The position numbers and the translations under genes were made by a program. Below the pieces are notes generated by a model. The model made no database searches. It was not told the DNA's origin and saw only the letters and a program-made list of their open reading frames with translations. From IMG/VR virus record IMGVR_UViG_3300024255_000099, positions 1 to 30,915 of that record: DNA of 30,915 bases; one strand, 5' to 3'. Positions within the stretch are counted from its first letter, which is position 1. Every line of letters starts with the position of its first letter. This DNA comes from a virus. Positions 6,363 to 22,466 of the stretch are shown here, one piece after another.

Positions 6363-6698
6363 ATGCGACCATTATGTAAATGCGGGCACCGACCTGCAGC
6401 AATTAATTATAAAAAAGAGGGTAAAACCTACTATCGTACACTATGTGAAAGGTGTTTACGTAACGGTGTTGGACACGGAATTCCTAAGTGGAAACGCACC
6501 GGATATCAGAAAAAAGATAATTGTGAAAAATGTGGGTTCAAATCAAAGCATACTGAACAGTTTAATGTGTTTCATACAGATGGCGATTTAACTAATTGTA
6601 GACCTAGTAATTTAAAAACTATTTGTGCTAACTGTCAACGAGTACTTCAGAAAGAAGGTAGCCGCTGGAAGCAGGGAGATCTAGTCCCTGATTTTTAA
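6363..6698 (+). CDS. Zinc-binding HNH-endonuclease-like protein
   Basis: A 111-residue basic protein with four Cys pairs: CKCGH near residue 5, CERC near 28, CEKCGF near 54 and CANC near 88. The C-terminal half, VFHTDGDLTNCRPSNLKTIC, resembles the HNH pattern 'HH.DGd..Nn...NL..LC..C', with H, D and the two N positions present, though the first canonical His pair is reduced to one. Very similar small proteins are common in marine T4-like phages; some may be DNA-binding rather than cutting. The ATG is preceded by AAGGTGAGG. The gene points opposite to its neighbours, and its last 71 bases overlap the 3' end of the minus-strand kinase gene. Confidence 0.65.
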   Translation: MRPLCKCGHRPAAINYKKEGKTYYRTLCERCLRNGVGHGIPKWKRTGYQKKDNCEKCGFKSKHTEQFNVFHTDGDLTNCRPSNLKTICANCQRVLQKEGSRWKQGDLVPDF

Positions 6699-7188
6699 AT
6701 ATTGTTTCCATTAGTATATGTACGTTTTTCTTTAGTCTTTGTAAATCACCATTATTGTCAATGGTGTAATTACACATCCATTGCTCGATACTCATCGAAC
6801 TAGGATCCTCACTAGGTAAATGATCGCTTCTATCTACCCAAATAGCATAATCAAATATCTCTTCGTTTTGCATTGCAAAAAATTCACGCTTGTTACGCAA
6901 ACCGCAATAGATATCGTGTTCGTCAAATAAGTTACGTCCTAAACGTGCTAGATCATCTTTACAATAGTTGTGTATCATATTATACCATTCAGTACGATGA
7001 TTGTGCCTATCTGCATAGCACTCTTCCTCATTAGCGTACCCGTATTGATCTTTTAAATCATTAAAGATAAAAAGCTCTGAACAAAATTTGCTTGATGATT
7101 GAAATGTATATCCGTATGCTTCTAACATTTCGCATACAGTGTCTTTGCCGTGGCGGCCGTGACCAACAATTAATAGTTTTGGTAGCAC
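6628..7188 (-). CDS. P-loop kinase, deoxynucleoside monophosphate kinase-like
   Basis: A 186-residue protein that starts with a beta strand and Walker A loop (PKLLIVGHGRHGKDTV, G9-x4-G14-K15-D16). The layout fits small nucleotide kinases, and GKDT is the form seen in phage dNMP kinases such as T4 gp1. Further support comes from a helix with LARLGRNLFDEHDIYCGLRN and the strand IFDYAIWVDR, where a Walker B or lid region is expected. It would supply dNDPs for phage DNA synthesis, an early function. The start is a GTG: AAGGAG lies six bases before it and no earlier ATG fits. It sits directly behind a consensus sigma70-type promoter, unlike the surrounding late genes. A dephospho-CoA-kinase-like role is an alternative. 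Confidence 0.65.
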   Translation of the reverse strand: MLPKLLIVGHGRHGKDTVCEMLEAYGYTFQSSSKFCSELFIFNDLKDQYGYANEEECYADRHNHRTEWYNMIHNYCKDDLARLGRNLFDEHDIYCGLRNKREFFAMQNEEIFDYAIWVDRSDHLPSEDPSSMSIEQWMCNYTIDNNGDLQRLKKNVHILMETIFKNQGLDLPASSGYLLSEVLVDS

Positions 7189-8729: not shown

Positions 8730-8737
8730 GATAAATA
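8730..8737 (+). promoter_or_regulatory. T4-type late promoter motif for gp14
   Basis: GATAAATA on the plus strand ends at 8737. With T4-like spacing, transcription would begin about six bases later, at or next to ATG 8743, so the gp14 message may be leaderless. The upstream side is the antisense of a minus-strand gene, so a promoter is needed in this 52-base gap. Confidence 0.65.
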
Positions 8738-12073: not shown

Positions 12074-12415
12074 ATGACAGATAATATAAAACAAACAGAC
12101 TACGGTTACGAAGTTGTTTGGACTGACAACGAACATTATTGTAGTAAAATATTAGTTTTTGAAGAAGAAGGCAAACAAACTCGATTACATTTCCACAAAA
12201 ATCGACACAAAAGTTGGTTTGTAAATGCTGGGAAGTTTGAAGTACAATGGGTTGATTCTAAAGACGGTAAAGCATATTCTAAAGAACTTCCAGAAGGTAG
12301 TATTTTTGAAGTGCCTGCACTATTGCCTGTTACACTAAAGAGTTTAGCTGATAACAGTGCTATGGCAGAAACTAGTAATAGCAATGATTTAGAAGATTAT
12401 TATAGGTTAAATTAA
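12074..12415 (+). CDS. Small cupin-domain protein
   Basis: A 113-residue single-domain cupin. Motif 1 is RLHFHKNRHKSWFVNAG, with His39, His41 and His45 as likely metal ligands and Gly53 closing the turn. This is close to the 'H.H....HW.V..G' pattern of the sugar-nucleotide-linked mannose-6-phosphate isomerase type II group. Motif 2 corresponds to PEGSIFEVPALLPVTLKS. The usual motif 1 glutamate is absent. The end is acidic. It directly follows the Nudix gene and its stop overlaps the next start (TAATG), so the three genes form a cassette. Binding or isomerase activity is undecided. Confidence 0.8.
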   Translation: MTDNIKQTDYGYEVVWTDNEHYCSKILVFEEEGKQTRLHFHKNRHKSWFVNAGKFEVQWVDSKDGKAYSKELPEGSIFEVPALLPVTLKSLADNSAMAETSNSNDLEDYYRLN

Positions 12416-12678
12416 TGTTAAAAATAAGCCAATCTAAAGAATTTAAAAAAGACTTTATACAATATAAAAAAGACATTGATCAAATTACTAATGAACGTGC
12501 TAAAGAAAAATGCAAAGATATTTTAAATAAACTATCTAACGAATATAGTTATATTGATGCTACACACGATGCAATTAATAAATCAATTGATCCTACTAAA
12601 ATAAGAGAAAATGTAGAACGTAGTATTGAACTACGCCAAGAATTAAATAAAATAATTAAATATTCGAAAGATCTTTAA
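12415..12678 (+). CDS. Hypothetical helical protein (87 aa)
   Basis: An 87-residue, Lys/Glu/Ile-rich protein, MLKISQSKEFKKDFIQYKKD onward, which reads as three long charged helices with possible coiled-coil character. No domain, signal peptide or membrane segment. Its ATG overlaps the cupin stop, and its 3' end overlaps by 23 bases the convergent fibre gene, with no room for a conventional terminator. It belongs to the same short cassette as the Nudix and cupin genes. Function unknown. Confidence 0.65.
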   Translation: MLKISQSKEFKKDFIQYKKDIDQITNERAKEKCKDILNKLSNEYSYIDATHDAINKSIDPTKIRENVERSIELRQELNKIIKYSKDL

Positions 12679-14494
12679 CTGTAATTGATCCAAACATCGA
12701 AGAGTGACTTGTACATTGATAAACATATGTACCATTGCCGCTTTCAGGAATTCTCCAATACAATGTACCACTAGATTTGCCTTGAGCTGCGCTATTTGTA
12801 CTTACAGTTCCAGTTGATGTAACGTGTACCAAATTACTAGTTAATGCTGTAAGAGTATTATCTTGTATTTCAAATGGATGTCCTGAAATATTATCTAAAT
12901 CAAATGCTATAGTAGTTCCGCTTATAGCGTAGATAGTAGGATTGTTTCCGCTGTAATGACTAGGAAACGTGTATGCACTTGTTCCAACATTATCAACTCT
13001 CAGCATTGCAATAGCAGGTTCATATATTTTTCCTATATCTATACTTGCTGTAGTTACATCACTTAGCGCACTAAACGTAGTTACACCAGATGCTGGAGTA
13101 GTAAATGTAAATGTTCCACTACCATTGGTTGTTAATACTTGATTTAAAGATCCGTCAGTAATTCCTAGATCCGTTAATACTGCTGGTACTACTGGAGGTG
13201 TGTATGTAAACACTCCTGTCGAATCATTGTATGCAATAGCACCATTACCACTTGCTGAGCCTTCTGTTCCAACACTTAGGTCTGTAAGTGCAATTCCGCC
13301 GTCAGCAGCAGCAATAGTAATATTACCACTGCCTAGTAAACTAGTACCGTTTATTGTTTTAATATTTGTGGCACTTACTAAAGTTGCTTGTGCATCAGTA
13401 ATTCCGTATCCTGCTAACGTAGTTGGAGTAGTTGTTAGATCAGCAAATGCCACACTAGTTAGATATGTACTCAAGTCAGGTGGAGTATAACGGAATACTC
13501 CTGTAGTATCATCGTATGATATAGCGCCATCGCCTGTGGCTGCAAGTTCGTTACCAACACTTAAACTTGCCAGTGTAAGTATACTAGGTTTGTTAGTAAC
13601 GTTGCCCCAGTCTAAATAATATGTTCCGTCAAATCCGTCAAGTGTATCAGCATCTGTTCCGCCGCCACCAGTTGTAGCATCAGAACCTGGTGCCCATTTA
13701 GCACCGTCCCACTTTAAAACTTGTCCGGAAGTTGGCGCACTTGTTGTAGTGTCAACATCGCTTAAAAAGTCAATACTAAATGCACTCATATTAATTGTTA
13801 CATCGTCTGAGTCTGTAGCAATAGCAGTTGCTATGTTTGTACCGCCTAATATACTTAATGTATCTGTTACAGCATTAGCTGTTGTTGATCCGTCATCACT
13901 TGTAATTGTAGCAAATAAGTTCTGTGTCGAACCTGTTGCAGGTGCATCTTCAAATGTAAAGTTGCCAGCACCGTCTGTAGTTAGGATTTGTGTCGAATTA
14001 CCATCAGTAATTCCTAGGTCAGTTAGTGCAGCAGGTATTAAATTTGTTGTATCTGTTAAATTAGATAAGTCTGCAGGTATTAAATTTGTTGTATCTGTTA
14101 ACTCTGATATGTCTGCTACAGAAGTAAGATCTGCTTGATTAGCAAGTTCTATCCAAGCGCCTGCGTGTGCATAGTATGCTTTACCTGTGCCGTGTACGTG
14201 TGCAAACATTCCGTGATTGTCTGTTGCACTTGGTAAATCTACAAGCTCAGCATATGCTATCCAGTTTATATCATCGTTTGTTAAAGATACTTTTGCAGAA
14301 AGTGTTGCTTCGCTTACATTGTTTAGATCTGCTCTTGCTATTTCAAAACCGGCTGCATCTTTACCGCTATATACTCTTAAACTATTAGTAACTTTGTTAA
14401 AGAATACTTCACCACTAGATCCTACGTTGCGATCTAAAAAATCAGTAGGTCTTGGTATAATTCTTATTCTATCTACAATCGGTGCTGATGACAT
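12656..14494 (-). CDS. Tail fibre-like protein with C-terminal cupredoxin-like domain
   Basis: A 612-residue repetitive, Thr/Ala/Gly/Asp-rich protein. The N-terminus MSSAPIVDRIRIIPRPTDFL is followed by fibre-type repeats: LTDTTNLIPADLSN twice, LTDLGITDG twice, and paired blocks LSVGNELAATGDGAISYDD and LSVGTEGSASGNGAIAYND. The last 105 residues form a separate domain with His539 (SGHPFEI), Cys594, His597 and Met600 (YQCTSHSSMFG). That is the ligand set and order of type 1 copper sites in plastocyanin-like folds, and similar domains end structural proteins of other marine phages. Late promoter GATAAATA and AAGGAAAG precede the ATG. Copper binding is inference; the domain could serve only as an adhesin fold. 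Confidence 0.8.
   Translation of the reverse strand: MSSAPIVDRIRIIPRPTDFLDRNVGSSGEVFFNKVTNSLRVYSGKDAAGFEIARADLNNVSEATLSAKVSLTNDDINWIAYAELVDLPSATDNHGMFAHVHGTGKAYYAHAGAWIELANQADLTSVADISELTDTTNLIPADLSNLTDTTNLIPAALTDLGITDGNSTQILTTDGAGNFTFEDAPATGSTQNLFATITSDDGSTTANAVTDTLSILGGTNIATAIATDSDDVTINMSAFSIDFLSDVDTTTSAPTSGQVLKWDGAKWAPGSDATTGGGGTDADTLDGFDGTYYLDWGNVTNKPSILTLASLSVGNELAATGDGAISYDDTTGVFRYTPPDLSTYLTSVAFADLTTTPTTLAGYGITDAQATLVSATNIKTINGTSLLGSGNITIAAADGGIALTDLSVGTEGSASGNGAIAYNDSTGVFTYTPPVVPAVLTDLGITDGSLNQVLTTNGSGTFTFTTPASGVTTFSALSDVTTASIDIGKIYEPAIAMLRVDNVGTSAYTFPSHYSGNNPTIYAISGTTIAFDLDNISGHPFEIQDNTLTALTSNLVHVTSTGTVSTNSAAQGKSSGTLYWRIPESGNGTYVYQCTSHSSMFGSITVKDLSNI
14031..14100. repeat. Direct repeat, 28-base copies at 42-base period
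   Basis: The 28 bases at 14031-14058, beginning GCAGGTATTAAATTTG, recur identically at 14073-14100. They encode tandem copies of LTDTTNLIPA in the fibre protein. Identity at DNA level suggests a recent duplication or repeat-length slippage. Confidence 0.85.
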
Positions 14495-14514
14495 ATAACT
14501 TTCCTTAGTTTATG

Positions 14515-14522
14515 TATTTATC
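14515..14522 (-). promoter_or_regulatory. T4-type late promoter motif for cupredoxin-tip fibre
   Basis: GATAAATA on the minus strand, 20 bases before the ATG at 14494, with AAGGAAAG in between as ribosome site. Confidence 0.65.
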
Positions 14523-14576
14523 ATTTCTATTTAATGCCTAGCAGTAGACAACATAAGTACTATTAAAGGAAACAGA

Positions 14577-15116
14577 ATGACAGATTTAGAAATAATTGAT
14601 AATTTTTTACCAGTGAATCAATTTAATAAAGTCCAACAAGACTTAATGTCTAATAAATTACCTTGGTTTGTTAACGATGATATCGTACATACAGATCTAG
14701 GAAATATTGCGTCTAATAAAAAACACAATTGGCAATTATTCCATCTTTTTTATTATAATCCCCTTATGCACTCTGAATATATTAGTGCTATTGAACCAAT
14801 ATTACAACATCTAAATCCATTAGTATTAATAAAAGCTAAAGCAAATACAAATTATGTTACTGAATCAATAGTTGAACACGGAATGCATATTGACATACAA
14901 AATCCTGAATTAAAAAGCATTTTGACTACAGGAATCTTTTATGTTAATAACAACGACGGTTATACGTTATTAGAAGACGGTACTAAAATTGAAAGCGTAG
15001 CAAATCGATTTGTAAGTTTTTCGGCAGAAACTAATCATAGCGGAACAAGTTGTACTAATACTAATCGAAGAGTTGTACTAAACTTAAACTATATTAAACA
15101 AACACAAAAGACTTAA
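14577..15116 (+). CDS. 2OG-Fe(II) dioxygenase (prolyl-hydroxylase-like)
   Basis: A 179-residue enzyme of the small phage 2-oxoglutarate/Fe(II) oxygenase family. The iron-binding triad is visible: His104 and Asp106 (EHGMHIDIQ), and His154 (AETNHSGT). Arg164/165 in NTNRRVVLNLNY is placed to bind 2-oxoglutarate. The strand pair FYVNNNDGYTLLEDGTKIES is typical of the cyanophage versions. Such enzymes hydroxylate protein side chains or small molecules; the substrate is not known. AAAGGAAAC precedes the ATG. The halogenase gene starts 11 bases after its stop, with AGGAG between, so the two oxidative enzymes form one unit beside the fibre genes. Confidence 0.88.
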   Translation: MTDLEIIDNFLPVNQFNKVQQDLMSNKLPWFVNDDIVHTDLGNIASNKKHNWQLFHLFYYNPLMHSEYISAIEPILQHLNPLVLIKAKANTNYVTESIVEHGMHIDIQNPELKSILTTGIFYVNNNDGYTLLEDGTKIESVANRFVSFSAETNHSGTSCTNTNRRVVLNLNYIKQTQKT

Positions 15117-15127
15117 TAGGAGACTAT

Positions 15128-16564
15128 ATGCACATATGCATTGTTGGTACTGGAGCAAGCGGCTGGATTACAGCACACTTTCTTAAAAATAATCCAAAAA
15201 TTAAAAAAATTACAATCATTGGTTCTGATAAAATTCCAACTATTGGAGTAGGCGAAGCAACTACTCACAGTTTTAGAGAGTTTTTATTAAATCGATGCAA
15301 TTTAACAGAAGAAGAATATACAAAATTCTTAATAGATTCTGATGCATCTTTCAAATACGGTGTTAGTTACGAAGGATGGAGTAAGAAGAAATTTTTACAC
15401 CCGTTTGCTATTGGACAACACTTAGGTTACCTATTAGGAAAAAAAGATCCTAATGACAATTATCACAAGTATGTAAGTCCAATACATAATGAAATTTATA
15501 ATAATAAAGTATATCTTGGCACAGATAAACACGAATATTCTTTCCACTTTGATGCTAATAAGTTTATCAATGCAATGACGGAATTAGCTAAATTAGACGA
15601 TAAGATAACACATATTGTCGATACTGTTGTCGAAAGCCAATACGACAATCTAAATAATGTTAGTTGTATTATTACAGATTCAAAGAAAAAAATAACTGCT
15701 GATTATTTTGTTAGTTGTATTGGATCTCAAGCATTTAATAAAACTATCTTTAATGAAGAATATATTTCATATGACGATATACTTTTAACAAACAAAGCAG
15801 TAGCGTGTCCGTTAGCATATTCTGATAGAGCAACTCAATCACACCCTTATACAGTAGCTAAAGCAATGCCTAACGGGTGGCGATGGATTACTCCTACATT
15901 ATCAAGGGTAGGTACTGGTTATGTTTTTAGTGATAAACATATAAGCGTAGACGAAGCAACAAGTCAGTTGTTAGATGATATTGGAGATCGAGATCTTATA
16001 ATTGATCCATTTGTAGTTGATTTTACTCCTAGGCGAGTTAAACAAGTTTTTAAATCAAATATTGCTACTATAGGAATGGCAGCTGGATTTTTAGAACCGT
16101 TAGACGCTCCAGGGCTTGCATTAACTTTAAGGTTTTTAACATTTTTAGAAGATGTATTAGATAATATAGAATCTAAAGATATACAAAAAATAAAGACAAT
16201 GTTAAATCAAGAAGCAGTTATTGATTATAATTTCTTTTGTAGTTTTATTTTACATCAGTATAAAACTTGTAAACGTAGTGACACTGAGTTTTGGATAGAT
16301 CAAAAAAATGTACAATTTGATCCTTATGATGAAATTTTACATCAAGTATTTGATCCTGCAATAACCAAAGCCAATACTCCTGTTTATCCGCAGTCTGTAA
16401 GAGAACCTTGGATGTTTTATAATAGTACTGCTGGCAAAGATATTAGATGGGAAGTAAAAATAGATGAAGACCTTACTGATATTACTGAAACAAAGTTTAA
16501 TGAAAATTTATTGTTTACTCACAAAGAATTGCTCGATAAAATGGTTAAGCAATCTTTAAAATAA
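15128..16564 (+). CDS. Flavin-dependent halogenase (tryptophan halogenase family)
   Basis: A 478-residue FAD enzyme. The N-terminal dinucleotide fold is GTGASGW (Gly7, Gly9, Gly12), followed by TIGVGEATTHSF, diagnostic for the tryptophan halogenase family. Lys76 in DASFKYGVSYEGW sits where the catalytic lysine of PrnA/RebH (Lys79) lies. The halogenase signature WxWxIP appears as WRWITP (251-256) with Thr in place of Ile, followed by RVGTGYVFSD. Glu323 in GFLEPLDAPG matches the catalytic glutamate region. The family adds Cl, Br or I to activated carbons using reduced flavin, oxygen and halide; a cyanophage homologue, VirX1, has been characterised as an iodinating enzyme. No flavin reductase is encoded nearby. 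AGGAG precedes the ATG. Confidence 0.9.
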   Translation: MHICIVGTGASGWITAHFLKNNPKIKKITIIGSDKIPTIGVGEATTHSFREFLLNRCNLTEEEYTKFLIDSDASFKYGVSYEGWSKKKFLHPFAIGQHLGYLLGKKDPNDNYHKYVSPIHNEIYNNKVYLGTDKHEYSFHFDANKFINAMTELAKLDDKITHIVDTVVESQYDNLNNVSCIITDSKKKITADYFVSCIGSQAFNKTIFNEEYISYDDILLTNKAVACPLAYSDRATQSHPYTVAKAMPNGWRWITPTLSRVGTGYVFSDKHISVDEATSQLLDDIGDRDLIIDPFVVDFTPRRVKQVFKSNIATIGMAAGFLEPLDAPGLALTLRFLTFLEDVLDNIESKDIQKIKTMLNQEAVIDYNFFCSFILHQYKTCKRSDTEFWIDQKNVQFDPYDEILHQVFDPAITKANTPVYPQSVREPWMFYNSTAGKDIRWEVKIDEDLTDITETKFNENLLFTHKELLDKMVKQSLK

Positions 16565-16569
16565 TGTAA

Positions 16570-17025
16570 TTAGTCTTCTTCAGCACCCCGGTATACTGAT
16601 ATATTAGGATCAACCCAAGGTTCAGCAACTTTTGCAGCTGGCTGATTCGATATTCCTTCGTGTTCTAAATCCCATTGCCGCGTATCTTCGTTCCAAACAT
16701 AATACTCGTCATCGTTGTTAGGAGTAGGTGAAGGTGTCGGCGCTTCCCATTCTATAGTAGAAGAATTAAACGTCCAACTAGGATACGGCTTTGGCATAAT
16801 AAATGCATCTAATTCACTATTGTATGTATGCCCAATACCGGCATAACAATTTCTAAAGTTTCCATTATAGCTAGTTTGTAGCCAAACACCTTTTAGTCCA
16901 ATAGATTTGATATAGTGCTGCCCTATTGGTTCACTTTTAGGAAATTCTTCATTATAGATATCATTGTTATTAATAACAATAACGTCTATTACTTTATTTT
17001 TTTTAATTTTAACAAAATGTGCCAT
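16570..17025 (-). CDS. Conserved small phage protein at end of fibre cluster
   Basis: A 151-residue protein beginning MAHFVKIKKNKVIDVIVINN and containing NGNFRNCYAGIGHTYNSELD, then FIMPKPYPSWTF and two Trp-rich turns (EWEAPTPSPTP, YYVWNEDTRQWD). The same layout is frequent in marine T4-like phages, usually near tail fibre or accessory genes, and has no proven role. The ATG at 17025 is preferred over a TTG two codons upstream because MAHF is the usual family start; TAAAGG lies upstream. It is the last gene of the right-hand minus-strand cluster and converges on the halogenase, with five bases between their stops. Confidence 0.7.
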   Translation of the reverse strand: MAHFVKIKKNKVIDVIVINNNDIYNEEFPKSEPIGQHYIKSIGLKGVWLQTSYNGNFRNCYAGIGHTYNSELDAFIMPKPYPSWTFNSSTIEWEAPTPSPTPNNDDEYYVWNEDTRQWDLEHEGISNQPAAKVAEPWVDPNISVYRGAEED

Positions 17026-17039
17026 AGTCAACTTTACCT

Positions 17040-18458
17040 TTAGATGTTGTATCTTTTCTTTGCAATCTCATAACTTTTTCTAACATCGCCAGCGGACATT
17101 GCAGAATTATAAATTCTAACCTGTTTCATATATCCTGTAAAGAAAAAATTAGTACTTTCAGCTCCGATTAGAACGTCAGAACCATCTGCACCAGACCAAG
17201 TTCCTGATCCTACTTGTGCTCCGTCTAAATAAACAACTCCTGATCCGCCACTTCGTGTATAAGTAATTTGGTGCCAATTTCCGTCCCAAGCATTTGTTCC
17301 AGCAGCTACGTTACTATTGTAATTTCCATCTTGTACGCCAATTTGTGTATTTCCGTTATTCTTACCTATAAAGAAATCACCGCTTTTATTACCAGCAAGA
17401 GCTTGATAATTTGCGCTAGTGGATCCGGTATATTTGTATACAACACTAAATGTAAATCCATCAAGAAGTAATTCATCTGATATGCCAAATCTAGTTGCAC
17501 AGTGTTCGTTATTACCATCAAATTGAACTGCTTGTTCGTTATCATTATACACTGGCCAATTTACAGCAGTTGCATCATTTCCGCCTACATAGTCTCTCCA
17601 TTTATGATGATTGTTGTTTAGAAGATCTTGTATACTAGGTTCTGTACCATCGCAAACATCAATTCTAGGATCCCAGAATTGTTGCGAGGTTGATGTATTA
17701 GTTGAGTAAAATAAGTAACTTCTATGCATAGCATAAGTAGCACCGTCACGGTACACATAATCTCTACAGTTACCAATTTTAGTCCCGCTTGTATTATATA
17801 TACCAGTCTGCGGATGATCGCTTCCGGTTTCACTTCGATAGGGCCAAGTATGTCCTACAAATAAAAACCATTCATTTGCACCACCTGGCCAACCGCCAGA
17901 GTAAAAATAAGGATTTGTTGTTCGGCCACCGCTTGTTCTAACGTCTACACCGTCATTGGATCGTGTACCCATATAAGTTGAACCGTTACCTACTACACTT
18001 CTTTTCATCCACATACTATGTCTAGTAAATCTAAAATAGTCAATGTTAACATTACTACTGTTCCATCCACCGTCCGCGTTACTAGTCGAATCGTTGCTCG
18101 GTGTGTCCCAAATAATTGCTGTATTTCCGTGAGGATCAGTTGACCAAATTCTTCTATTTTCTGCTGTTGAACCGTTTGCTCCCCAGCTAGTTTCGCCACC
18201 ATTACCAAGGTTCCAGTTTTCTATAGGAAGAAGTGGGTCTCGCCAATCTCTTTGAAACATTCCTGAATCATATTCAGCTATAAGTGTTTCGGTATTTTCT
18301 TCTGTGGGAGTCCAGTGGGTTCCTTGATAAAATTCAACTGCGGATGTTTCTGAATTAAATCTTAAATCTCCTTGTGCTGCGCTTCGTTGTGCAACATTGC
18401 CAGAAGGTAAATTAATAAATCCTGAACTGTTAACTACTGTATTTTTTAAAGTTGCCAT
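17040..18458 (-). CDS. Tail fibre/adhesin with C-terminal LamG-like lectin domain
   Basis: A 472-residue protein. Residues 1-50 (MATLKNTVVNSSGFINLPSG, then RSAAQGDLRFNSETSAVEFY) are the same N-terminal module as in the two genes upstream. About residues 60-290 are an aromatic, Gly/Ser/Asn-rich region of unknown fold. Residues 305-472 look like a concanavalin A/LamG-type jelly roll: AVQFDGNNEHCATRF, GFTFSVVYKYTG, AWDGNWHQITYTRSGGSGVV, YLDGAQVG and GYMKQVRIYNSAMSAGDV. Such domains bind glycans, so this is a candidate receptor-binding protein. GAGGT precedes the ATG. A TATAAATG sequence at the end of the upstream gene could be a weak late promoter. Confidence 0.8.
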   Translation of the reverse strand: MATLKNTVVNSSGFINLPSGNVAQRSAAQGDLRFNSETSAVEFYQGTHWTPTEENTETLIAEYDSGMFQRDWRDPLLPIENWNLGNGGETSWGANGSTAENRRIWSTDPHGNTAIIWDTPSNDSTSNADGGWNSSNVNIDYFRFTRHSMWMKRSVVGNGSTYMGTRSNDGVDVRTSGGRTTNPYFYSGGWPGGANEWFLFVGHTWPYRSETGSDHPQTGIYNTSGTKIGNCRDYVYRDGATYAMHRSYLFYSTNTSTSQQFWDPRIDVCDGTEPSIQDLLNNNHHKWRDYVGGNDATAVNWPVYNDNEQAVQFDGNNEHCATRFGISDELLLDGFTFSVVYKYTGSTSANYQALAGNKSGDFFIGKNNGNTQIGVQDGNYNSNVAAGTNAWDGNWHQITYTRSGGSGVVYLDGAQVGSGTWSGADGSDVLIGAESTNFFFTGYMKQVRIYNSAMSAGDVRKSYEIAKKRYNI

Positions 18459-18470
18459 CTATTACCTCAT

Positions 18471-19466
18471 TTATACCGGATATCTTATAATAACCACGCC
18501 GCTGCCTCCGCTGCCGCCTGCTTTTAGATATGTAGCAGTTCCACCGCCACCGCCGCCTCTGTTTGCCATTGCTGACTGTCCTGGTTCGCCGCTGCCGTGT
18601 TGTCCTGTGCCGCCACACGCACCTACGCCGCTACCACCTTGTCCTACTGGACCAGTGTTACTATAGTTAGGTAGTGGATATACTCCACCTCCGCCGCCGC
18701 CGGCGTAGTATCGTAATTGTCCTGATATCGAAGAAGCAATTCCTGGGCCACCATTGCGACCATAACTTTCTGATAAGAACCAATAATCTGTTCCGCCAGC
18801 GCCACCACCACCGCCGCCGGTATTTTGTTGACCGTCTGATTTGCTGCCGCCATCTGATCCTTGACCTGCTGTTCCTGCGCCACCAGTTGATCCGTTAGAC
18901 CAATTTTGAGTTCCACCACCGCTGCCACCTGCGGCGCCACCTGCAGAATAGTTTCCGCCTCCGCCACCGCCTATAGCTGTTAAACCAAATGCACTTGAAT
19001 TACCACCAGCGCCGCCTTGGCCTCCAGGAGATGAATTAGTTCCTGTGTTTGGTGCTCCGCCGCCGCCTACAACAATAGCATTATTTGCTACAGTACGAAA
19101 TGAAGTACCTTGTAACAGTCCGCCTGCGCCACCACCACCACCGTGATGTCTGCCGCCTGCGCCACCACCAGCAACGATTAAGTATTCAACTTCTCCTGCA
19201 CACACTACGTTAAAACTACCAGCGCCAGTAAAGGTAAATGTTTTGTATCCACCGTGTATCTTTACGTCTACTGCTCCAGTTGCTGTTGCTTTGCATTTCT
19301 TATCTATACAAATCCAGTTAGAGCCATTATATAATTCTACATCGTTTATATCAGTATTAAATCGCATATACCCGACTTGTGGATTAGGTGGTCGATCACC
19401 TGTTATTCCTCTTGGTAACGTAAGAGAACCTGTATCATTGATTGTTAATGTATCTAGTGTAGCCAT
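18471..19466 (-). CDS. Glycine-rich tail adhesin
   Basis: A 331-residue protein starting MATLDTLTINDTGSLTLPRG. The first ~50 residues copy the N-terminal module of its neighbours (VGYMRFNTDINDVELYNGSN). A short beta segment (KTFTFTGAGSFNVVCAGEVE) leads into a ~240-residue Gly-rich domain with many GGGGG runs, ending VVIIRYPV. Gly-rich domains of this kind, which pack as polyglycine helices in the gp38 adhesin of phage S16, recognise host surfaces. The ATG at 19466 overlaps the preceding stop (TAATG) and has GGAGGG ten bases upstream, so a GTG six codons earlier is not used. The Gly runs raise local GC sharply. Confidence 0.82.
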   Translation of the reverse strand: MATLDTLTINDTGSLTLPRGITGDRPPNPQVGYMRFNTDINDVELYNGSNWICIDKKCKATATGAVDVKIHGGYKTFTFTGAGSFNVVCAGEVEYLIVAGGGAGGRHHGGGGGAGGLLQGTSFRTVANNAIVVGGGGAPNTGTNSSPGGQGGAGGNSSAFGLTAIGGGGGGNYSAGGAAGGSGGGTQNWSNGSTGGAGTAGQGSDGGSKSDGQQNTGGGGGGAGGTDYWFLSESYGRNGGPGIASSISGQLRYYAGGGGGGVYPLPNYSNTGPVGQGGSGVGACGGTGQHGSGEPGQSAMANRGGGGGGTATYLKAGGSGGSGVVIIRYPV

Positions 19467-21262
19467 TAGCTGCCAACCCTCCACTTAGTTGCATCGTATA
19501 TTTGTTTAATTTCTATAGCACTTAGTTCTCTAGTATAAACTGCCATAAAATATATCCATCCTTGCCACCTTGTACCAGTATAACCAACTCCGTGTCGTAT
19601 ATCAGTAGTTGCATTTGCTGTAGTAGCATATCCGCCAGCGTCTGCTGATGTATATTGTGCTCCGTTTTTATACCAGTACGATCTATTCTTAATTTGATTT
19701 CTAGTACTGACTATAAATGCAGTTTCATTAACTGTACCTAAGAAGTTACCGTCGCTGCCTCTTCCAACATAAGGTGATCCATTAGGTCCGTTGGTTCCAA
19801 AGTAGTAACTAACACTTCCGCCTGGTTCGTGTGTCCAAGTTCCTGAGCCGCCATATGATTGATCGTGAAGGTTTCTACGTCCAGATAACGTTGTTGGCGT
19901 TAACCACATCATAATAGTTTGAGCTCTTGAAAAGTCCATAGTTCTTGCATTATAAGGAACTGTAAGGTTTGAACTACCGTCAAAATACAATCCGCCGCCA
20001 TTTTTACCGTCTTTTCTTAAATATCCGTTTGAGAAAGAAGCGTGATTACTATTGCCACTTAAATCTCTAATTGTTCTGTTTCGCCACTTTTCGTCATTTA
20101 GACAAATGTGTTTACTCATATCAAATGCATATACTAGGCCTTCCTTAGAAGCACCATATAAATTATCAAGTTCTATTTGGCCGCCGTCTAATACTCCAAC
20201 CTGTCCAACATCTCTTTTGTATCTTATAACTACAATACCACTTCCGCCAGCACCACCTGACGATGCTGAGCCGCCATTACGACCACTGCCGCCACCGCCT
20301 CCGCCTGTGTTTGGTTGTCCATTTTTTCCTGTAGGCTCTATTGCGCCATCATATATATCACTTGCACCAGCACCAGTGCCGTCGTTGGGGCGATCGCCGT
20401 AGCCACCGCCGCCTTTGCCGCCGTCACCTGGTTCGGCATTGCTCGAGCTACCGTGAACTCCACCGCCACCACCGCCTGAATACCAAACTTGAGCACCAGT
20501 TATTGCACTTGGTTTACCTATGCCGCCGTTGCCTGACTTAGCTGCTGTCCAATTTCCTCCAGGAGCTCCAGCACCGCCACCGCCTCCTGTTGGATATCCG
20601 TTTGTACTTGATCCTCGTCCTTGACCGCCATTAAATCCTTGGCCTGCTGTTCCTGCTGCGCCTGCTGGACTGTGTCCTTCACCGCCTCCTGAACCGCCAG
20701 ATCCTGCATCGTATGTACTCCAAGATCCACCTTTTCCGCCGCCTATTGAAGTTAAACCAAGTGCGGTTGAGTTTCCGCCTCTGTTAGCTCTAGGCATTCC
20801 GCTATAGCTGCCTGGATTACGTTCTCCAGTTCCGCCAGCTCCTACTGAAATAGGATAGCTTCCTGGAGCTAGATCCATTTTTCCTGATAAGAAGCCGCCG
20901 CCTCCGCCGCCGCCTCCGACCCAAGCGCCACCACCACCGCCACCAGCAACGATCAAGTATTCAACTTCTCCAGCTTGTGTTACGTTTAAAGTTCCTGCGC
21001 CTTGTTCATTTGTAAATACGTGTACAGTATACGGAACTCCGTTTTCTACTATATTATAAGTTTTTTCTGCTCCGGAAGCCGATGCTTGTATACTACCATC
21101 TGTTTCTCGCCATTGACCGTTACTATAATACTCTAGTTGATTTAAAGTTGTATTGTATCTTACGTATCCTTCCACAGGACTTCCCGGGCGTTGAGCAGTT
21201 GTTCCCGAAGGAATAGTTATAAATCCCGTATCATCAATGTTAGTATTTTTTAGTTGTGCCAT
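19466..21262 (-). CDS. Tail adhesin: glycine-rich domain fused to LamG-like lectin
   Basis: A 598-residue three-part protein. Residues 1-52 (MAQLKNTNIDDTGFITIPSG, GYVRYNTTLNQLEYYSNGQW) are the shared N-terminal module. About residues 65-360 are a Gly-rich domain (AGEVEYLIVAGGGGGGAWVG at its start, SGIVVIRYKRDVG at its end) parallel to the one in the next gene. About residues 375-598 are a LamG-like domain: LVYAFDMSKH, RDLSGNSNHASFSNG, GGGLYFDGSSNLTVPYN, AQTIMMWLTP, SYWYKNGAQ and IYFMAVYTRELSAIEIKQIY. It therefore combines the adhesive parts that are separate in the two downstream genes. The start is three bases after the previous stop; the ribosome site is weak, so coupling is likely. Confidence 0.83.
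   Translation of the reverse strand: MAQLKNTNIDDTGFITIPSGTTAQRPGSPVEGYVRYNTTLNQLEYYSNGQWRETDGSIQASASGAEKTYNIVENGVPYTVHVFTNEQGAGTLNVTQAGEVEYLIVAGGGGGGAWVGGGGGGGGFLSGKMDLAPGSYPISVGAGGTGERNPGSYSGMPRANRGGNSTALGLTSIGGGKGGSWSTYDAGSGGSGGGEGHSPAGAAGTAGQGFNGGQGRGSSTNGYPTGGGGGAGAPGGNWTAAKSGNGGIGKPSAITGAQVWYSGGGGGGVHGSSSNAEPGDGGKGGGGYGDRPNDGTGAGASDIYDGAIEPTGKNGQPNTGGGGGGSGRNGGSASSGGAGGSGIVVIRYKRDVGQVGVLDGGQIELDNLYGASKEGLVYAFDMSKHICLNDEKWRNRTIRDLSGNSNHASFSNGYLRKDGKNGGGLYFDGSSNLTVPYNARTMDFSRAQTIMMWLTPTTLSGRRNLHDQSYGGSGTWTHEPGGSVSYYFGTNGPNGSPYVGRGSDGNFLGTVNETAFIVSTRNQIKNRSYWYKNGAQYTSADAGGYATTANATTDIRHGVGYTGTRWQGWIYFMAVYTRELSAIEIKQIYDATKWRVGS
19477..19482 (-). promoter_or_regulatory. Shine-Dalgarno site for a TAATG-coupled start
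   Basis: GGAGGG on the minus strand, ten bases before ATG 19466. It lies inside the 3' end of the upstream adhesin gene and supports ATG 19466 as start, since the alternative GTG at 19484 lies upstream of this site. Confidence 0.5.
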
Positions 21263-21265
21263 TAC

Positions 21266-22120
21266 TTATTTCTTCAACTCATCTATCTCTAGTTTTAAAC
21301 TTTTAATTGCTTCAATTAAATAAGCAGTTAGTTTTGTATATTTAATTCCAACAACATCATTGTTTGTATCACGAGTAACTAACTCCGGTAAAACTTCTTC
21401 GGTCCATTCAGCAATTAGTCCGCTTTCGTGTTCGTTATTATCTAATCTATCATAAGTTACGCCGCGTAAATTTAATATACTAGTTAACGCATCTTGGATT
21501 GGATTGATGTTTTCTTTAAGTGCAATACTTGAAGTTTCAACAATACTTACAGCAGTTACCTGACCACCAAAGCCAGCTCCGCCGGATACTACTAATGCTC
21601 CAGACGTAGTTGAACTAGAAGCAGTACTTGCAGAAGCTCTTAACTCAGCAGTAGTTAATCTGCCAGGGTTTGGTACAAAGTTTAGTCTGCTGCCATCTGC
21701 TACACTTAGTGTATCTTCTGTTCCAGTAGTACCATCGGACATAGTAATATAGTAAGTACTATTATCTGCTGCTGTTCTATTTGTAACTGTTAGTGAAGGT
21801 GCCGTCCAACTTAAAGTGCCGCTACCGTCTGTTTGTAAAACATTACTTGCTGCACCGTCATCTGCTGGAAATGTTAACGTATAGTTACCAGCAAGTGCTG
21901 CTGGGGCTTTAAGAAGAGCATAATTAGTATCGCCGTCTCCTAATCTAATACCGGCATTTGAACTGGTGTATAAATCTTTAGTAAATTCTGTAACACCTGT
22001 ACCATCAGGTGCTAATACAATATTTGAATTAGATTCACGTGACGTAAATGTGTTTGTTGATGTAGAAAGACTTCCCAAAACCTGTCCACCTACTACTCCT
22101 GATGTAATTTTTCTTGGCAT
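21266..22120 (-). CDS. Tail fibre protein with S74 intramolecular chaperone
   Basis: A 284-residue fibre. The N-terminal part is a Thr/Ser/Gly-rich fibre region with repeats such as VLQTDGSGTLSW. From residue 197 it carries a Peptidase_S74 (intramolecular chaperone) domain: SSIALKENINPI with the likely cleavage Ser197 and the conserved Lys, then ILNLRGVTYDR, HESGLIAEWTEEVLPELV, VGIKYTKLTAYLIEAIKSLK and a closing coiled coil. In known cases this domain makes the fibre trimerise and then cuts itself off, so the mature fibre may be about 196 residues. The usual SD after the Ser position is SS here. AAGGAAG precedes the ATG. Confidence 0.88.
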   Translation of the reverse strand: MPRKITSGVVGGQVLGSLSTSTNTFTSRESNSNIVLAPDGTGVTEFTKDLYTSSNAGIRLGDGDTNYALLKAPAALAGNYTLTFPADDGAASNVLQTDGSGTLSWTAPSLTVTNRTAADNSTYYITMSDGTTGTEDTLSVADGSRLNFVPNPGRLTTAELRASASTASSSTTSGALVVSGGAGFGGQVTAVSIVETSSIALKENINPIQDALTSILNLRGVTYDRLDNNEHESGLIAEWTEEVLPELVTRDTNNDVVGIKYTKLTAYLIEAIKSLKLEIDELKK

Positions 22121-22130
22121 TGTTTCTTCC

Positions 22131-22466
22131 TTATGTAGTTGCTGTTTCTATACCGTAAACCATAACTGCTGTATTAGCCTGCGATGAACGTGCATAGATT
22201 TGTCTACTAGCATCAATTACTACACCAGTTCTTTCTAGAACACCGTTTGGTAGTATTTCTGTTTCGTATTCCAAATAGTCATCTGCTACTGGTAAAGTTG
22301 CGCCAGTTGGGTCTGTTTTAGCTATAGCTAATCTAACTGTAATGCTAGTTGAGTTTTTGTTGCATATACTTACCGTAGCTACACTAAACGTAGTCACCGG
22401 TACCAAATATATTGGTGTATATGTTGTAGCAGCTAAATCTGCTGATCCTAATATTCCGTTTGCCAT
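22131..22466 (-). CDS. Small virion structural protein (111 aa)
   Basis: A 111-residue beta-rich protein (MANGILGSADLAATTYTPIY, TFSVATVSICNKNSTSITVR, EYETEILPNGVLERTGVVID) with a short sandwich layout. Similar proteins sit between large tail proteins and fibres in marine T4-like phages and are thought to be part of the virion; the exact role is not known. GGAGA precedes the ATG. The gene lies 20 bases after the giant tail gene and 10 bases before the S74 fibre. A late promoter motif within the 3' end of the giant gene may drive it. Confidence 0.65.
   Translation of the reverse strand: MANGILGSADLAATTYTPIYLVPVTTFSVATVSICNKNSTSITVRLAIAKTDPTGATLPVADDYLEYETEILPNGVLERTGVVIDASRQIYARSSQANTAVMVYGIETATT

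Follow-up and report, generated by a model that had tools for sequence, protein, structure and literature searches.

A virus-encoded flavin-halogenase-fold protein with a conserved non-canonical catalytic and halide site, found beside a prolyl-hydroxylase-fold oxygenase gene

The window analysed here, a virus record of 30,915 bases, carries structural genes of a T4-like myovirus (head closure, tail tubes, sheath, neck adaptor gp13, gp14-like and gp15) and two adjacent genes that encode a 2OG-Fe(II) oxygenase and a flavin-halogenase-fold protein (Table 1). A first-pass annotation made from the sequence had proposed these two reading frames, each with its own ribosome-site-like sequence, and both the coordinates and the sites are borne out, with a gap of 11 nt between the genes and one ribosome-binding-like site (AAAGGA and AGGAG) ahead of each. 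Its placement of the pair between two blocks of fibre genes holds on the right, where the block comprises a LamG-like protein, two Gly-rich (PF21722/phrog_2295) proteins, an S74 chaperone and a 111 aa fibre protein, but not on the left, where there is a single fibre/connector gene, preceded by gp14, gp15, Nudix and cupin genes. Both genes are under purifying selection, with dN/dS of about 0.10 for the flavoprotein and about 0.06 for the oxygenase when compared with a close relative. Elsewhere in the window, the interval between the sheath gene and gp13 contains a phrog_38514 protein that weakly resembles dNMP kinases (6628-7188) and overlaps a weak HNH-like reading frame on the opposite strand (6363-6698).

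Table 1. Genes and catalytic codons at and around the oxygenase-flavoprotein pair
Feature	Coordinates	Strand	Basis
Cupin (cysteine dioxygenase-like, phrog_7851)	12074..12415	+	in gp14-gp15-Nudix run upstream
Tail-fibre/baseplate connector-like gene, left neighbour of the pair	12656..14494	-	phrog_677 2e-42
2OG-Fe(II) oxygenase, 179 aa, prolyl-hydroxylase (PHD/P4H) fold	14577..15116	+	phrog_274 9.9e-45, alignment, AF2, fold matches
PF04820 flavin-halogenase-fold protein, 478 aa, DAPG subfamily	15128..16564	+	PF04820 3.7e-69, phrog_2928 2e-85, AF2
Codon of Lys76, PrnA Lys79 equivalent (catalytic lysine)	15353..15355	+	HMMER alignment to PrnA
Codons W251-R-W-I-T-P256, WxWxIP variant	15878..15895	+	invariant in subfamily
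Codons D326-A327-P328-G329, catalytic Glu/halide site	16103..16114	+	alignment to PrnA, VirX1
153 aa protein, phrog_7759	16570..17031	-	homologues in 29 fetched loci
Fibre/adhesin block right of the pair	17040..22466	-	profile matches

The sequence GATAAATA occurs 8 times in the window against 2.7 expected by chance (at 2340, 3093, 8705, 14515, 22558 and 29915 on the minus strand and at 8730 and 22601 on the plus strand), several times 28-35 bases ahead of structural genes, and probably represents the phage's late promoter box. No exact copy precedes the oxygenase-flavoprotein pair, though one heads several of the structural genes; the oxygenase gene is preceded, at a suitable place, by a conserved but degenerate near-late-promoter sequence, ATAAGTA. 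A scan of positions 14000-17200 for sigma-70 promoters and terminators gave matches that were not above chance.

The HxD...H triad reported for the oxygenase by the first-pass annotation is present (H104, D106, H154) and is joined by a 2OG-binding arginine (R165), all four residues being invariant in an alignment of 20 viral homologues and accompanied by the double-stranded beta-helix of the 2OG-Fe(II) oxygenase superfamily. The AlphaFold2 model is good (pLDDT 88), the best Foldseek matches are prolyl hydroxylases, and the top structural matches are PHD2 (Z 15.8, 3.4 Å over 160 residues) and the Pseudomonas putida P4H (Z 14.9), which have the fold and the Fe/2OG residues in common with the window protein but are only 13-15% identical to it; the likeness is one of fold only. 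The substrate of the oxygenase is predicted from this modelled fold to be a protein. Both family assignments had been called firm: this stands for the PF04820 assignment of the flavoprotein, whereas that of the oxygenase rests on fold and conserved residues, its Pfam match (PF13640, 2OG-FeII_Oxy_3, E 0.0035) lying under the cut-off. PHROGs labels the oxygenase cluster 'DNA endonuclease V', an identity that we set aside given the motif, Pfam and fold evidence against it: a Pfam search at E 10 gave no DenV family match, and the fold lists give 2OG oxygenases only. Because of the conserved triad, the prolyl-hydroxylase fold and an S-SSM7 homologue that is annotated denV and matches 2OG-FeII_Oxy_3 at 5e-9, the label looks like a propagated error. 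Members of phrog_274 that carry both the 2OG motif and a PF13640 match are the window gene, locus L009 5435-5989 (the S-SSM7 'denV') and L007 8962-9573. 'Ferrochelatase'-labelled phage proteins also fall in 2OG clusters (L006 1025-1666, L007 9563-10195, L117 3919-4527); the family of the L117 protein, which bears HxD...H and occurs next to halogenases, seems to be a further group of 2OG oxygenases and is possibly the source of that label.

For the flavoprotein, the halogenase fold and cofactor site proposed in the first-pass annotation are backed by the profile matches, by the AlphaFold2 model (pLDDT 83, pTM 0.86) and by structural matches to AbeH (Z 40.9), PrnA (Z 39) and VirX1 (Z 35.9), the range across PrnA, RebH, AbeH and VirX1 being 35-41. 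The C-terminus of the model is weak, with pLDDT below 50 at residues 406-423 and 441-455, in the region that shapes the substrate pocket. The GxGxxG, Lys76 and WRWITP motifs are all present as proposed: the FAD motif comprises G7, G9 and G12, the last kept in the window protein but not in every subfamily row, and the FAD-sensing glutamate is E43 in VGE, while Lys76 falls on PrnA K79 and is invariant in alignments of 50 and of 19 rows. At the WxWxIP motif the protein reads WRWITP, and since the same Ile-to-Thr change recurs in other phage halogenases (WETP, WNTP, WKTP, WDTP) we rejected it as a mark of novelty by itself. Tryptophan halogenases bear a Trp4 substrate motif, YY...E..NFW or its group B form (PMC8269204); this motif was looked for in the C-terminus of the flavoprotein and is absent, so that on its sequence the protein would not be a tryptophan halogenase and the label 'tryptophan halogenase' does not describe it. 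The earlier observation that no flavin reductase is seen extends from the window to 17 related virus records, all fragments, in which PF01613 found no match, consistent with use of a host reductase.

The most distinctive part of the protein is its catalytic and halide site. In the HMMER alignment to PrnA, E323 falls on PrnA E343 and D326 on the catalytic E346, and A327, P328 and G329 align with PrnA S347, T348 and G349; because the PrnA reference, 2jkc, is itself an E346D mutant, the alignment register is unambiguous. We therefore rejected Glu323, the catalytic glutamate proposed in the first-pass annotation, in favour of Asp326, which holds the E346 place in all subfamily members. The site thus reads D-A-P-G in the window protein versus E-S-T-G in PrnA and VirX1. 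Glu346 orients HOX and takes up a proton (PMC9764358), and according to one review a Glu-to-Asp change alone can keep low activity (PMC8407142), so D326 need not signify new chemistry. Halide binding rests on two backbone NH groups, those of T359 and G360 in RebH (PMC5945002, PMC7336383), within the Thr-Gly of the Fx.Px.Sx.G motif, where the window protein has Ala327-Pro328-Gly329. As proline has no backbone NH, one of the two halide-holding amides would be lost at P328, and halide choice or efficiency should consequently differ from that of ESTG enzymes. The earlier suggestion of a possibly different halide or substrate preference is thereby upheld, on other and stronger grounds than the one it gave, Thr for Ile, a change that other phage halogenases show as well. 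A literature search for proline in a halogenase halide site found nothing. Two other phage PF04820 proteins read GSPG at this loop (L101 2350-3828 and L115 2356-3828); in them both the Glu and the Thr amide would have been lost a second time.

The fetched viral loci yielded 196 distinct PF04820 proteins, and the group of the window protein was the only one found to read D-A-P-G; in 7 phage halogenases (L179, L184, L188, L192, L196, L199 and others) the motif search hit another stretch, AMKY, and left the catalytic loop unread for this count. A second viral retrieval, seeded on GWRWIT and HPYTVAK so that WRWIT but not DAPG was part of the seed, gave 42 loci, equivalent to 23 distinct proteins at <90% identity, with D-A-P-G in all 41 that span the site and GWRWITP in all 42. 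These proteins are about 37-48% identical to the window protein over the alignment and form one long-stemmed clade (SH-aLRT 100, 22 rows) apart from VirX1 and from bacterial relatives, in a tree built by a quick method with the motif columns retained. Two scans of 84,980 bacterial and archaeal species, one genome each, found no DAPG-bearing halogenase relative: the first, with a small clade alignment, gave no relative, and the second, with a broader alignment and a direct search for EPLDAPG, found through another stretch relatives with EST- or EAT-type loops. When two subfamily members were compared with 50,697 phage records, the top matches reached about 30% identity, and no isolate gave a close match. 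Within this scope of fetched viral loci, species genomes and phage records, where pattern seeding can miss members, the subfamily is apparently virus-only, and no isolated phage seems to carry it. Other loops found in phage halogenases are EATS, ESNG, QATS and GSPG. As judged from these alignments, what sets the flavoprotein clade apart is its strictly conserved non-canonical catalytic/halide site, the pairing with an oxygenase being already of a known kind.

Comparison with characterised relatives sharpens these differences. VirX1 (PDB 6QGM), a cyanophage Syn10 protein identical to syn9 gp42, is likewise a viral PF04820 flavin halogenase of the same fold (3.2 Å) with the catalytic lysine and no tryptophan motif, and its gene follows tail-fibre assembly genes and precedes 2OG oxygenases, much as the window gene lies near fibres and an oxygenase; it has, however, E-S-T-G and WNIP where the window protein has D-A-P-G and WITP, is about 24% identical to it and falls in a separate clade. 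The tryptophan 7-halogenases PrnA and RebH share with the window protein the fold, GxGxxG, the Lys79 equivalent and most of WxWxIP, and differ from it in the catalytic Glu (Asp in the window protein), in the halide Thr (Pro) and in carrying the Trp4 YY...E..NFW. The brominating, open-pocket enzymes BrvH and Xcc4156 (Z 38-40 to the window model) similarly have no Trp4 motif and an altered halide loop (T-S and T-N), but at the first halide position, where the window protein has Pro, they retain Thr and with it the backbone amide. In the Pelagibacter phage HTVC008M, gp078-gp079 is a 2OG oxygenase gene with a PF04820 gene directly after it, and the pair shares with that of the window a place downstream of gp13-gp14-gp15; its halogenase is of the EATS type and the pair lies between terminase genes, not fibres. 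QhpG is a halogenase-like flavoprotein that acts on a protein; its sequence match to the window protein is not significant (E 0.02).

Across phages, 2OG oxygenases are enriched beside halogenases, making up 71 of 161 (44%) operonic neighbours versus 214 of 1,296 (16.5%) for other genes (odds ratio 4.0, p 3e-14; 135 halogenase representatives at 70% identity, with the operonic neighbours of the remaining non-2OG genes of those loci as control), with a weaker enrichment by distance (2OG share of 0.40 at distance 1 versus 0.25 at distances of at least 3, p 3e-5); these figures are approximate because 2OG genes from halogenase loci served as seeds for the 2OG models, which overlook at least one 2OG group, and because the loci are not fully independent. 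The co-occurrence survey that the first-pass annotation had proposed as a check thus came out in its favour, including in the phage of VirX1 and in HTVC008M, and the examples of HTVC008M gp078-gp079, S-SSM7 and syn9 (gp42 being VirX1) mean that the pair arrangement is of a known kind. The two genes are nonetheless not fixed to each other. A near relative, L018, has an oxygenase 85% identical to that of the window in the same fibre neighbourhood and jumps from the equivalent of position 15104 to 17040, so that 15105-17039 is missing and with it both the flavoprotein gene and that of the 153 aa phrog_7759 protein; no PF04820 match was found in its 12 kb record, a fragment. Of the 37 loci where a relative of the window oxygenase occurs, 27 show no halogenase, and only 5 of 23 subfamily members have an adjacent 2OG oxygenase (8 of 23 within three genes). 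The proposed two-gene unit therefore stands as adjacency and enrichment and fails as a fixed arrangement; we rejected an obligate operon, and the oxygenase and flavoprotein are best read as a dispensable cargo cassette.

Phage halogenases in general have among their neighbours carbamoyltransferases, glycosyltransferases, sugar epimerases and kinases, Gly-rich fibres and fibre-assembly genes, a setting in keeping with the decoration of fibres or surface glycans. Within the DAPG subfamily the fibre-embedded position is not conserved, members often lying amid quite different genes, and it is thus weak evidence for a virion-protein target, a proposal of the first-pass annotation of which the pairing is upheld by enrichment and the positional argument is not; with such varied surroundings, different phages may have different targets. 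For the window locus the first guess would be modification of adhesins, and it is no more than a guess. A conserved small partner gene upstream of DAPG members was considered and rejected, as the 110-120 aa genes found there are unrelated or lineage-specific. Among sampled non-2OG neighbours of halogenases, about one in nine belongs to a phrog_7084-like family of 230-290 aa with a P/W-rich N-terminus and 'CP...GY' (L174 7336-8031, L122 3882-4622, L100 7541-8368 and about 17 more), for which no Pfam family was found. NodU/Nol-like carbamoyltransferases lie directly beside phage halogenases, together with 2OG oxygenases (L169 4086-5798, L108, L126, L154, L178, L186 and S-SSM7 L009). Literature searches found nothing on phage prolyl hydroxylases with tail fibres, and the literature examined names no natural substrate of phage halogenases.

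Sequence and predicted structure thus give an FAD fold, Lys76, no Trp4-type C-terminal motif and a loop changed from E-S-T-G to D-A-P-G. The account that we tentatively favour, at a little under an even chance, is an oxidative-tailoring cargo cassette in a T4-like aquatic phage, with halogenation of a large substrate and altered halide handling. The first gene would provide an Fe(II)/2-oxoglutarate oxygenase of prolyl-hydroxylase fold that hydroxylates a protein, and the second a flavin-halogenase-fold enzyme of the apparently virus-only subfamily. A host reductase would supply FADH2, which would react with O2 to give the flavin hydroperoxide. The next step would be oxidation of an anion bound by the Pro/Ala loop and by the one amide left, that of Gly329. 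Through the tunnel the oxidant would then reach Lys76/Asp326 and there may halogenate an electron-rich group of a substrate that is large or loosely bound, the candidates for this substrate being a virion protein, a surface glycan or a host metabolite. Against this account, the WxW motif and the lysine, both kept, are compatible with ordinary halogenation, and most subfamily members lie beside neither fibres nor 2OG oxygenases, an observation that speaks against a virion target common to them all and against a pathway of two enzymes. The flavoprotein might be an ordinary VirX1-type phage halogenase paired by chance with an abundant enzyme class, its D-A-P-G a neutral loop variant. We regard this as unlikely, though a serious contender: Lys76, GxGxxG and WxW are retained, T4-like marine phages are rich in halogenases as well as in 2OG oxygenases (PMC3037559), the two genes separate freely in L018 and other loop variants exist among phage halogenases, but DAPG and WRWITP are invariant across a long-stemmed clade whose members are only about 37-49% identical to the window protein, where a neutral variant would drift, and the proline is without the backbone NH that the halide needs.

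The remaining readings partly overlap with these and with each other. A role in small-molecule auxiliary metabolism, in which a host metabolite is modified or a halogenated antimicrobial is made and the oxygenase is unrelated, is rather unlikely in our estimate; subfamily loci often lie amid genes other than fibres, antibiotic protection was proposed earlier for cyanophage prnA (PMC2984593) and the pair is not headed by the exact GATAAATA box of the structural genes, yet no biosynthetic partner genes are seen, the missing Trp4 motif makes free tryptophan an unlikely substrate, and the conserved near-late-promoter ATAAGTA stands at the right place. Loss of a halide amide, Glu-to-Asp, Ser-to-Ala in the Fx.Px.Sx.G signature and Ile-to-Thr in a motif said to prevent monooxygenation would all suit a flavin monooxygenase or oxidase that oxygenates an aromatic protein residue, as does the halogenase-like peptidyl-Trp dihydroxylase QhpG (PMC7876137), whose NCBIfam model matches the phage family member L035 at 4.4e-6 and the window protein only at the weak level given above. 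Such a non-halogenase is nevertheless improbable, since the halogenation lysine is strictly kept, WxW and the Pro of the shielding motif are retained, and the nearest folds are Trp halogenases. That the virus-only subfamily has lost the canonical halide site altogether and puts its flavin hydroperoxide to another use, for example oxygenating or in some other way oxidising an aromatic residue of a phage or host protein, and that in this phage it acts beside an oxygenase that modifies the neighbouring adhesins, we consider a long shot.

Phage halogenases occur in many marine phages, and the contrast between the DAPG proteins and VirX1 (ESTG) constitutes a natural experiment on the role of the halide loop and on whether this fold can leave halogenation. 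The presence/absence pair formed by the window and L018 narrows the candidate targets of the flavoprotein. For annotation, phage PF04820 matches are not to be taken as tryptophan halogenases.
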